NCBI GenBank assembly: GCA_016870355.1
Contig: VGBR01000002.1
Coordinates: 216,982 to 280,981, forward strand
From: Actinomycetota bacterium
GTDB taxonomy: Bacteria > Actinomycetota > Acidimicrobiia > IMCC26256 > PALSA-555
Length of the DNA: 64,000 bases
Reading direction: 5' to 3'
Shown: positions 8,132 through 19,942 of the stretch, piece after piece
Numbering within the stretch: the stretch's first letter is position 1
Layout: every line of letters begins with the position of its first letter
Notes under the pieces: generated by a model
Told to the model about the DNA's origin: nothing
The model's input: only the letters and a program-made list of their open reading frames with translations
The model's database searches: none
Program-made: the position numbers and the translations under genes

Positions 8132-9094
8132 GTGTCCGCACCGTCTTCGACGCAGCTGAAGGTCCTGGTTCCTGGCAACCACCTGATGGTGGATCTGCTG
8201 GGCCAGCGCGATGAGCTGCTCAAGCTCGTCGAGGCGGCCTTCCCCGTCACCATCCATGTGCGCGGGAACGAGATCACCGTCACCGGCGAGGCAGAGGATG
8301 CCGAACGGGTCGGTCGTCTCTTCGAGGAGCTCGTGCTGCTGCTGGAGCGCGGTCAGACGTTCGATCGAGATGGCATCGGTCGCACCATCGAGATGCTCAA
8401 GGCTGATCAGCGCCCGTCGGAAGTGCTCGCGACCGAGGTGCTCAAGGGTCGCAAGCCGGTGCGACCGAAGACCGCAGGTCAGAAGCGCTATGTCGACGCC
8501 GTTGCCGCGAACACCGTCACCTTCGCGATCGGTCCCGCGGGTACGGGCAAGAGCTACCTTGCCGTCGCGCTCGCGGTGCAGGCACTGCAAGCCAAGGAAG
8601 CCAACCGGATCATCCTCACTCGGCCCGCAGTCGAGGCCGGCGAGCGACTCGGCTTCCTACCCGGCGACATGCTGGCGAAGGTCGACCCGTACATGCGGCC
8701 CCTCTATGACGCGCTCTACGACATGCTCGACCCCGAAGTCGTCGCTCGGCTCATGGACCGCGGGACGATCGAGGTCGCTCCGCTCGCATTCCTGCGCGGC
8801 CGCACGCTCAACGACTCGTTCATCATCCTCGACGAGGCGCAGAACACGACGCCCGAGCAGATGAAGATGTTCCTCACGCGGCTCGGCTTCGGCTCGAAGG
8901 TCGTGGTCACCGGTGACGTCACCCAGATCGACCTGCCGGAAGGGCGCGGCCGCTCGGGGCTGCTCGCGGTGCGCGACATCCTCACCGACATCGAGGGGTT
9001 GGCGTTCGTCGAGCTCGATCGCGGCGACGTCGTCCGGCACCGCATCGTGCAGGACATCGTGCACGCCTACGAGCGAGCCGCCGAGACCCGTTGA
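8132..9094 (+). CDS. phoH: PhoH-like ATPase
   Basis: A 320-residue PhoH2-type P-loop protein. An N-terminal KH-like part (residues 1-110) precedes Walker A in AIGPAGTGKSYLAVALAVQA (about residue 132) and Walker B in IILDEAQNTTPEQMKMFL, followed by TGDVTQIDLPEGRGRSGL. These proteins bind and hydrolyse ATP and are linked to RNA metabolism. The gene precedes ybeY, the widespread phoH-ybeY pairing. The GTG start at 8132 is supported by the -10 box nine bases upstream. Confidence 0.93.
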   Translation: MSAPSSTQLKVLVPGNHLMVDLLGQRDELLKLVEAAFPVTIHVRGNEITVTGEAEDAERVGRLFEELVLLLERGQTFDRDGIGRTIEMLKADQRPSEVLATEVLKGRKPVRPKTAGQKRYVDAVAANTVTFAIGPAGTGKSYLAVALAVQALQAKEANRIILTRPAVEAGERLGFLPGDMLAKVDPYMRPLYDALYDMLDPEVVARLMDRGTIEVAPLAFLRGRTLNDSFIILDEAQNTTPEQMKMFLTRLGFGSKVVVTGDVTQIDLPEGRGRSGLLAVRDILTDIEGLAFVELDRGDVVRHRIVQDIVHAYERAAETR

Positions 9095-9104
9095 TCGAGA
9101 CCTG

Positions 9105-9656
9105 GTGACCCCATCACCTTCCGCGCCGGTCTTCGGCGCCGACGAGCAGGACGCGGTGACGGTCGATGTCCTGCGCTTCGTGCGACTCGCCCAGCTCGTG
9201 CTGCGCGAGGAGCGCGCGCCCACGGAGGCCGAGGTCTCCGTCATCTTCGTGAACGAGGAAGCGATCGCCGATCTCAACCGGCGCTTCCTCGACGAGGCCG
9301 GTCCCACCGATGTGCTCGCGTTTCCCCTCGATGACGACGCGCCGCCGAGCGGCCGGCAACCCGACGAGGGTGGGCGCGGCCCGGGCGCTCCACCCGATGG
9401 CACCGACATCCCGGTGATCCTCGGCGACGTCGTGGTCTGCCCGGCCGTGGCGGAGCGCAACGCCGCCGAACATGGCCGCGCCGTCGACGACGAGCTGGCG
9501 CTCCTGGTCGTCCATGGGGTGCTCCATCTGCTCGACTACGACCACGCCGAGCCGGAGCAAGCCGACCGGATGCAGCGGCGTGAGCGCGAGCTGCTCGACC
9601 GCTTCGCAGCGTCCGAGCACGAACCAGGAGAGCCAGGAGAGGATGTCGGCCGATGA
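9105..9656 (+). CDS. ybeY: Endoribonuclease YbeY
   Basis: A 183-residue metallo-endoribonuclease for 16S rRNA 3' maturation and ribosome quality control. The zinc motif is visible in VVHGVLHLLDYDHAEPEQAD (three histidines), and the upstream conserved part is IADLNRRFLDEAGPTDVLAF. A Pro/Gly-rich stretch before VILGDVVVCP makes it somewhat longer than average. GTG 9105 was chosen because the open frame upstream of it lies inside phoH. The stop TGA (9654-9656) overlaps the ATG of the first family B unit, a junction that would otherwise couple it directly to the CorC-like gene. Confidence 0.93.
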   Translation: MTPSPSAPVFGADEQDAVTVDVLRFVRLAQLVLREERAPTEAEVSVIFVNEEAIADLNRRFLDEAGPTDVLAFPLDDDAPPSGRQPDEGGRGPGAPPDGTDIPVILGDVVVCPAVAERNAAEHGRAVDDELALLVVHGVLHLLDYDHAEPEQADRMQRRERELLDRFAASEHEPGEPGEDVGR

Positions 9657-9775
9657 GACGCAGCGGAGCCGTGGGCGGACGCCCGGGACGGCGTAGCGGA
9701 GTCGACCCAGACCGATGAGACGCAGCGGAGCCGTGGGCGGACGCCCGGGACGGCGTAGCGGAGTCGACCCAGGCC
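9652..9775 (+). repeat. Two tandem 62-bp family B hairpin units
   Basis: Two head-to-tail units, 9652-9713 and 9714-9775, differ at a single base (9711 versus 9773). Each has a flank GACGCAGCGGA, outer arms GCCGT/ACGGC, inner arms GGGC/GCCC, loop GGAC, a GGG bulge and a right flank GTAGCGGAGTCGACC. A third copy before recO keeps the loop, bulge and flanks but has different, still paired, arms. The units sit exactly at the ATGA junction of ybeY and the next gene. Confidence 0.9.
9653..9718 (+). CDS. 21-codon open frame in family B unit 1, coupled to ybeY
   Basis: ATG 9653 overlaps the ybeY stop (ATGA), and the frame ends at TGA 9716-9718, which overlaps the ATG of the next unit. The peptide would be Arg/Gly-rich (MRRSGAVGGRPGRR...). 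It may only carry ribosomes through the repeat to the next gene. No peptide function is claimed. Confidence 0.3.
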   Translation: MRRSGAVGGRPGRRSGVDPDR

Positions 9776-9780
9776 GATGA
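9715..9780 (+). CDS. 21-codon open frame in family B unit 2, coupled to the CorC-like gene
   Basis: It has the same layout as the preceding unit. ATG 9715 overlaps the stop of unit 1, and its own stop TGA 9778-9780 overlaps the ATG (9777) of the transporter gene. The chain of ATGA overlaps keeps translational coupling from ybeY onward despite the inserted repeats. Confidence 0.3.
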   Translation: MRRSGAVGGRPGRRSGVDPGR

Positions 9781-11072
9781 GTGGCACCGACTGGCTGATC
9801 CTGGTCGCTGTCGTCCTCCTCTTCCTGTTCTCGGTGTTCCTCGCGGTTGCCGAGACGGCGTTCGTGCGGATGAACCGCATTCGGGCGATCACGCTTGCCG
9901 AGGAGGGGAAGAAGGGTGCGGCCCGGCTGGCCGAGATGCTGGAGCGGCCGGAGCAGACGCTGAACGCGATCCTTCTCTTCGTGCTCGTGTCGCAGCTCAC
10001 GAGCGCGTCGCTGCTCGGAATCCTGCTCGACGGCCAGTTCGGTGGGTTGGGAGTCGCGATCGGCCTCGTCCTCCAGATCGTCGTGTTCTTCGTGATCGGT
10101 GAGGTGGCGCCCAAGACGTACGCGGTGCAGCACACCGACCGGGCCGCACTGCTTGCGTCTCCGTTCCTGCACGCGATCACGTGGTTCAAGCCGCTCCACT
10201 TCTTGTCGCGCGGTCTGATCGGGCTCGCGAACGTCTTGCTCCCCGGCCGCGGTCTGAAGCAGGGACCGTTCGTCACCGAAGAAGACCTCCGCACGATGGC
10301 CGACGTGGCCGCCGACGAGCAGGCGATCGAGCGCGAGGAACGAAAGCTGATCCACTCGATCTTCGAGTTCGGCGACGCGGTCGTGCGCGAGGTGATGAAG
10401 CCACGCCCCGACATGGTCGCCATCGAGGCCGACGCGACGGTCGAAGAGGGCATCGAGCGGGCCATCGGTGGCGGCTTCTCGCGCATCCCCGCCTACGAAG
10501 AGACCACCGACAACATCGTCGGCCTCGTGTACCTCAAAGACCTCGTCGGTCGAGCGCGTGCGGGTGGAGGCAAGGAGCCAGTGCGCGCCTCGCTGCGTAC
10601 AGCAGTGTTCGTCCCGGAGACCAAGCGTCTGGCCGAGCTGCTGCGCGACATGCAGAGCAGGAAGTTCCACATGGCGATCGTCGTCGACGAGCACGGCGGC
10701 ACCGCCGGGCTGGTCACGCTGGAAGACCTGCTCGAGGAGATCGTCGGCGAGATCGTCGACGAGTACGACGTCGAAGAGCCCGGGGTCGTCCGACTGCCCG
10801 ACGGCACCGTGCGGGTGCCGGGCAACCTCTCCATCGACGACCTCTCCGAAGAGCTGGGTACCGAGCTGCCCGACGAGGAGTGGGACACCGTGGGCGGACT
10901 GGTCCTCAACCTCATGGGGCATGTGCCCGAGCCGCGCGAGAAGGTGCGCTTCCAGGGCTTCGAGTTCACGACCGAGCGCGTGCAGGGCCGGCGCATCGCG
11001 TCGGTGCGCATCAAGCGCCTCGCCGTTCCTCCCAAGGAGGCGGAGGAAGCGGACGCGACCCAGTCGTCGTGA
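9777..11072 (+). CDS. CNNM/CorC-HlyC family transporter-associated membrane protein
   Basis: A 431-residue protein. A DUF21 (CNNM) transmembrane domain at residues 1-180 starts with LILVAVVLLFLFSVFLAVAE. Two CBS domains follow (from about 200, with VMKPRPDMVAIEADATVEEG and later MAIVVDEHGGTAGLVTLEDL), and then a CorC_HlyC domain (LPDGTVRVPGNLSIDDLSEE). Members are linked to magnesium or cobalt efflux. The gene lies between ybeY and era, its usual place in actinobacteria. The ATG directly follows the second family B unit, whose GCGGAG may act as ribosome site, and the stop overlaps the era start. Confidence 0.9.
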   Translation: MSGTDWLILVAVVLLFLFSVFLAVAETAFVRMNRIRAITLAEEGKKGAARLAEMLERPEQTLNAILLFVLVSQLTSASLLGILLDGQFGGLGVAIGLVLQIVVFFVIGEVAPKTYAVQHTDRAALLASPFLHAITWFKPLHFLSRGLIGLANVLLPGRGLKQGPFVTEEDLRTMADVAADEQAIEREERKLIHSIFEFGDAVVREVMKPRPDMVAIEADATVEEGIERAIGGGFSRIPAYEETTDNIVGLVYLKDLVGRARAGGGKEPVRASLRTAVFVPETKRLAELLRDMQSRKFHMAIVVDEHGGTAGLVTLEDLLEEIVGEIVDEYDVEEPGVVRLPDGTVRVPGNLSIDDLSEELGTELPDEEWDTVGGLVLNLMGHVPEPREKVRFQGFEFTTERVQGRRIASVRIKRLAVPPKEAEEADATQSS

Positions 11073-19876: not shown

Positions 19877-19942
19877 ATGCAGGAGACGAAGCGGAGGCGT
19901 GGCCGGACGGCCGGGACGCCGGAGCGGAGTCGACCAGTGTGA
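19877..19942 (+). CDS. 21-codon leader frame coupled to recO
   Basis: ATG 19877 lies at a leaderless distance from TACACT, and the frame ends at TGA 19940-19942, overlapping the recO GTG (19939) by four bases. The length equals that of the two frames in the ybeY repeats, although the peptide (MQETKRRRGRTAGTPERS...) is read in a different phase of the repeat. It may deliver ribosomes to recO. No peptide role is claimed. Confidence 0.35.
   Translation: MQETKRRRGRTAGTPERSRPV
19885..19937 (+). repeat. Family B hairpin repeat, recO copy
   Basis: Left flank GACGAAGCGGA, outer arms GGCGT/ACGCC, inner arms GGCC/GGCC, loop GGAC, bulge GGG, right flank GGAGCGGAGTCGACC. Both stems differ from the 9652-9775 copies by changes on both sides that keep pairing. 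It ends two bases before the recO GTG and supplies GCGGAG as a ribosome site. Confidence 0.88.

Follow-up and report, generated by a model that had tools for sequence, protein, structure and literature searches.

The two near-identical units that separate ybeY from a corC-like gene in a freshwater Acidimicrobiia bacterium (genome G000, 2.8-Mb) are members of an unrecorded, order-restricted family of repeats, and the element is mobile. Direct observation covers how the element is built, that it moves and duplicates its target, where and in which orientation it lies, and how reading frames overlap at it; these findings are probably best explained by a non-autonomous mobile hairpin, which inserts in the sense orientation at translation-initiation sequences, duplicates its target and couples the following gene to a short leader.

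In the window, that is, the whole 64,000-nt stretch of DNA analysed, all the features concerned lie on the + strand. The ybeY gene (9105..9656; Pfam YbeY, 3.6e-35) ends in a TGA at 9654-9656, which overlaps the start of a first leader frame, and is followed by two direct repeats of 62 nt each (9650-9711 and 9712-9773), identical at 61/62 positions, and then by the corC-like gene (9777..11072), with CNNM, CBS and CorC_HlyC domains according to Pfam; both the units and their neighbours are as originally predicted. Each repeat holds a 53-nt core hairpin running from GAGACG to GTCGACC (9655..9707 and 9717..9769), the two cores being identical and each detected by cmsearch with 82.4 bits (E 1.7e-19). 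The proposed chain of 21-codon frames is also present: the first (9653..9718) runs from the ATG at 9653 to the TGA at 9716-9718, with an ATGA overlap at both ends, and the second (9715..9780) from the ATG at 9715 to the TGA at 9778-9780, whose stop overlaps the corC ATG (ATGA, 9777-9780). The duplicated target appears as a left copy GGCCGATGAG (9648..9657), a middle copy GACCGATGAG with one mismatch (9710..9719) and a right copy GGCCGATGAG (9772..9781), the latter spanning the corC start codon, at the place where the empty junction of relatives has its ATGA. A Shine-Dalgarno-like GGAG (9760..9763) lies in the 3' arm of the second copy, inside the predicted hairpin. The second unit probably arose from the first by tandem duplication. 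A third copy (19883..19935; 81.3 bits, E 3.4e-19) precedes recO, identified by Pfam, and its leader frame (19877..19942) runs from the ATG at 19877 to a TGA overlapping the recO GTG (GTGA, 19939-19942). By covariance model the window contains exactly three copies (E<=3.4e-19), the next candidate having E 0.19, while a search of positions 9000-10500 against Rfam gave no relevant match up to E = 5.

In most copies the core measures exactly 53 nt, and it follows the pattern GA-GAC-GNA-GC-GNA-arm-GGTC-GGAY-GACC-GGG-arm-GNA-GC-GGA-GTC-GA-CC. As a whole it forms one imperfect palindrome, with three outer pairs, two further pairs, a 5-pair variable arm, the GGG bulge, a 4-pair arm and the GGAY loop. 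The conservation of the GGAC loop and GGG bulge, noticed beforehand together with changed arms in the recO copy (19883-19935), is real. The covariation is overwhelming (0/500 shuffles). Pairing is kept in 99.3% of cells, where shuffles reach 83.7%, and double changes number 59 against 16; for 87 copies, most of which come from other genomes, the figures are 98.6% against 81.7% and 175 against 45, although this alignment was fitted to the covariance model and leans towards it. The unpaired positions are conserved as strongly as the paired ones: in two places GNA lies opposite GNA, and GA lies opposite GA, which we take to be the pattern expected of sheared G-A motifs, with a free middle base. 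The folding energy is unremarkable for the GC content when compared with shuffled GC-rich DNA (z -0.7 and +0.4), a point against the preferred explanation; the structural evidence is carried by the covariation. Between same-gene copies of different species, which may be independent insertions, 14 pair changes are compensatory, 8 are one-sided and 6 break the pair. The possibility of 3' arms templated by the target, suggested by L223, L214 and L205, was set aside, since the same arm pairs are ordinary variants elsewhere (L156 and L219 each combine GAGCTG with AAGC), and what look like stops are the NAG position of the element itself.

BLAST of the ybeY-corC locus against the host genome pointed to about 20 places. 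With a covariance model built from 32 copies, 37 were found in G000, 42, 21 and 15 in the other three genus members, 54 and 34 in two genomes of a different family, and smaller numbers in several further genomes. Besides G000, ten relatives carry copies, all from one Acidimicrobiia order, while many other families of that order had no match to the model. The same model found nothing in 295 other sampled Actinomycetota genomes, scoring being confined to the best candidates of each. A pattern search gave 50 matches compared with 4 in a control. A strict pattern, scanned over GTDB genomes, matched only actinobacterial MAGs, mostly labelled Acidimicrobiia, and it had no match in viral contigs. One MAG labelled Bifidobacterium breve (CAMDCC01, L188-L190) carries the element and matches G002, of the host's genus; its label is probably wrong. 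Tandem copies occur at corC, cysN and nuoJ.

Several other repeats and neighbourhoods were observed alongside these copies. On contig C10 of G000, to the right of an element pair (L002), two full units are followed by a head-to-tail array of 33-nt partial units (ACGGCGGAGCGGAGTCGTGCTCGGACGAGCGGG), a local expansion that is open in frame. In another family, copies and triple tandems stand directly before a tRNA-like sequence (CCGGGTAGCTCAGTCGGC; L202 of G014 and L211 of G029). The orthologous copies L039 and L158, of G000 and G001, precede a short frame starting GTGATCTTYGCCGACGACCAGTT and then a second frame, which is possibly prfB with its programmed frameshift. Finally, outside the window, G000 has a second repeat between genes, about 90 nt long (L308-L337), in which a hairpin such as CGGGTGTGGCTTTGCCACCCCG precedes a mini hairpin of 24 nt, GAGACGnAGCYTGCGGAGTCGACC (36 matches, 0 in the control); its arms covary (GAC/GTC, GCC/GGC, GGC/GCC), both orientations occur, and its outer palindrome is common to the 53-nt element.

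Mobility is seen most directly in filled and empty sites, which differ at about ten loci overall, some of whose gene names were read from sequence and not by profile search. The expectation that removal of the units would restore a direct overlap is borne out at the ybeY-corC junction, which is empty and shows a direct ATGA in five of the nearest relatives (G001, G002, G003, G005 and G008). The acyl-CoA dehydrogenase gene is filled in G000 and empty in G001 (TTCATGACG); tig-clpP is filled in G001 and empty, with GTGA, in G000 and G002; hisC is filled in G000 and empty, with ATGA, in G002; nuoI-nuoJ holds two copies in G001 and is empty, with ATGA, in G002; and rpmC-rpsQ is filled in G001 and empty, with TGATG, in G002. 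Moreover, recO is filled in G000 and G002 and empty in G001, argG is filled in G001 and empty in G000 and G002, and nuoJ and rpsQ of G000, as well as gyrA and hupB of G001, are also empty. The methylmalonyl-CoA mutase gene (mcm) of G000 carries an in-frame insert of ~20 residues, absent in G001, G002 and G012. Elements inserted into elements were found at ilvN of G002 and at L177, L241 and L243. In addition, flanking direct repeats scoring >=7 surround 14/98 single copies, compared with 1.6 expected (0/500 permutations), mostly at a shift of 9-12 nt; the duplications measure about 9-10 nt. A clear duplication is still visible in only about a fifth of single copies, which counts against the preferred explanation, and the statistic draws on this minority. 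Empty sites, nested copies and duplications beyond chance nevertheless confirm the unit as a mobile element. In G003, the C-terminus of ybeY is a short coding tandem repeat (GATGCTGCCCAGGCTGATGTTGCC; L084) just before the ATGA overlap with corC.

The copies are far from randomly placed, a finding that would have gone the other way had the link to gene starts been fortuitous: among the genus copies, 61/91 end 0-30 nt before a called start codon, in the sense orientation, the gene calls being based on simple codon usage in draft genomes with uncertain starts, and 77/78 of those outside genes are on the same strand as the next gene (p 5e-22). The upstream gene is divergent in 26. Against the preferred explanation, 15/46 copies outside genes in G014/G029 and other families oppose the next gene. 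The downstream genes are diverse and unrelated housekeeping genes. In the right flanks, G stands at +9 in 79% and GGA at +9 in 25/97, with GGA or GGAG found at +6, +8 or +9. The duplications end in GAG, and the duplicated target usually carries GGAG or ATGGAG, so that a ribosome site or a start codon is rebuilt on both sides. Where a ribosome site is duplicated (AAGGAGGAG, GAGGAG), one copy stays with the gene; with a duplicated start such as CTGATGGAG the leader is opened by the left copy and the gene is started by the right one. At argG of G001, the leader now begins in the equivalent of the native start region, and the junction carries a new ATGA start. Further sites are the Shine-Dalgarno sequences of genes with a divergent upstream neighbour, positions inside coding sequences (23/149 copies), where in-frame copies use several reading frames, and positions after stop codons.

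The original prediction held that the element inserts at coupled junctions and preserves their coupling. Coupling is indeed kept or created at many sites, but the junction as such is not the target: copies also lie at Shine-Dalgarno sites next to divergent neighbours, inside mcm, after stops and, ahead of tRNA-like sequence, in G014/G029. What these sites share is a duplicated target resembling GGAG or ATGGAG. The initiation signal itself describes the target better than a coupled junction does, although where the copies lie and which way they point could be the outcome of selection acting on random insertions and not of target choice. As regards coupling, a copy was counted when a frame was open through the element and overlapped the called start by 4 or 1 nt. 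Such a frame ends on the start codon in 39/64 copies, compared with 71/210 control genes, which means that coupling is preserved or created. Where the upstream gene is divergent or far, the frame ends on the called start in 16/29 cases against 15/85 controls (Fisher p 2e-4); in operon settings the values are 23/35 and 56/125 (Fisher p 0.036). At the orthologous cysN, recO and hpt sites, two species retain both the leader and its overlap despite different stop and start codons. The overlaps at element junctions take the forms ATGA, GTGA, TGATG, TAATG and TAGTG, and some copies at ribosome sites have no overlap.

The sequence of events proposed is as follows. In single-stranded form the element would fold as one long hairpin, and an enzyme supplied in trans may recognise this folded strand. 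Insertion would add about 52 nt and duplicate a target of about 9-10 nt, usually ending in GGAG or ATGGAG, which would leave a Shine-Dalgarno sequence or a start codon on both sides, the gene retaining an adjacent start signal. The old upstream signal would open a short leader frame, or the upstream gene would read on, through the element to the start codon. A ribosome passing through the element would open the hairpin and then reinitiate, so that insertion would cost the host little. Leader translation is presumed here, and coupling may buffer expression. With somewhat less than even confidence, a more specific version can be put forward, in which the target is the initiation signal (Shine-Dalgarno GGAG or ATGGAG), rebuilt on both sides, the element spreads as a translated, self-melting leader, and the mover reads a folded single strand with repeated GNA/GNA sheared G-A motifs.

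Among the other explanations, the one least improbable, though still unlikely, is that of insertion almost anywhere, without target preference, followed by purifying selection that keeps those copies preserving frame, orientation and start signals. It would account for in-frame coding copies in several frames and for survivors biased to harmless sites; selection alone predicts neither GGA/GGAG at the fixed right-flank offsets (+6, +8, +9) nor duplications ending in GAG. A cis-regulatory RNA in 5' leaders, whose hairpin hides the ribosome site while a regulon is controlled through a protein or ligand bound at the invariant GGAY loop and the GGG bulge, seems improbable. The siting just before start codons, the GGAG in the 3' arm, the invariance of loop and bulge, and the 14 compensatory compared with 6 broken pair changes among same-gene copies across species all speak for it; the diversity of the housekeeping targets, presence and absence that differ among sister species, and the existence of tandem, nested and in-frame coding copies speak against it, and the mix of downstream genes led to rejection of a regulon.

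The short imperfect palindrome with its bulge, the GGAG before the inner hairpin and the covariation at single-strand level are also features to be expected of a REP family moved via single-stranded DNA by a RAYT (IS200/IS605-like) transposase. This origin is nonetheless very improbable, given that no Y1 transposase (Y1_Tnp, PF01797) was found in G000-G003, G012, G014, G016 and G029, that target duplications are present, that the tandems are direct and not head-to-head dimers, and that copies are start-proximal, whereas REPs lie downstream of genes (PMC3733652). Reverse transcriptase (PF00078) is likewise absent from most element-bearing genomes, and the lack of a candidate enzyme also counts against the preferred explanation. 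Finally, a tandem duplication confined to ybeY-corC, with any likeness elsewhere due to chance, would suit the 61/62 identity of the window units and has practically no chance of being correct: it is already refuted by the genome-wide copies, with 37 dispersed over G000 (E to 1e-18) and the excess of pattern matches over the control.

The mobile hairpin inserted at initiation sequences would provide an independent example, from beyond the mycobacteria, of how a small mobile repeat limits damage by translational coupling. It ties the coupling principle to a testable mechanism, namely duplication of a ribosome site or start codon plus a hairpin opened by the passing ribosome, and the filled and empty sites in sister species make a long-standing guess about mycobacterial interspersed repetitive units (MIRUs) directly testable. 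Further, the family points to a mobilising enzyme, and gene starts and N-termini in element-bearing genomes can be misannotated.

Different known systems share part of these features. REP/REPIN sequences with RAYT (PMC3733652, PMC8266576) are also short imperfect palindromes with single-strand structure, occasional stop-codon provision and intragenic copies. The present element is longer (53 nt, as opposed to a 20-40 nt palindrome), has target duplications and no RAYT found, and lacks a GTAG/CGTC tag at the hairpin foot, its core starting with GAGACG and ending with GTCGACC, with GGAG only before the inner hairpin; moreover, it is sense and 5' of genes (61/91 <=30 nt before the start), whereas REPs are mainly downstream, at the 3' side. 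Rickettsia palindromic elements (RPE) are likewise palindromic inserts in frame inside coding genes (PMC10969869), but they measure about 150 bp, and most copies here are at starts, with coding insertions in the minority. Bacterial MITEs (ERIC, RUP, BOX and others) resemble the family in being non-autonomous and dispersed and in duplicating about 9-10 nt of target (here 14/98 compared with 1.6 expected); they differ in that the element appears to have no terminal inverted repeats of the double-stranded type and carries conserved G-A mismatches inside its palindrome. No parent insertion sequence was identified with the profiles PF01797 and PF00078.

The closest parallel is found in the MIRUs, short repeats, both scattered and in tandem, that sit at start codons (Supply et al. 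1997, PMID 9426136), of 40-100 bp and with 41 loci in M. tuberculosis (PMC2734929). Their internal small frame overlaps the start of the next gene by 4 nt, and the idea of insertion at start codons with ribosomes handed on, together with the same proposed benefit, is known from them (PMC12548453). The 62-nt unit falls within the 40-100 bp range, is dispersed and partly tandem, and has a small frame with the -4 nt overlap in the window copies and many others, though not in all; the overlaps also include TGATG, TAATG and TAGTG, and some copies lie at ribosome sites without an overlap or inside genes. The host belongs to another bacterial class, Acidimicrobiia. In addition, the core is a long imperfect palindrome forming a strongly covarying hairpin, whereas MIRUs, as Supply and colleagues described them in 1997, are reportedly without dyad symmetry. 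The coupling principle is that of the MIRUs; the novelty lies in the family itself, in its structure and order-restricted spread, and in the evidence that duplication of the target rebuilds the start signal.
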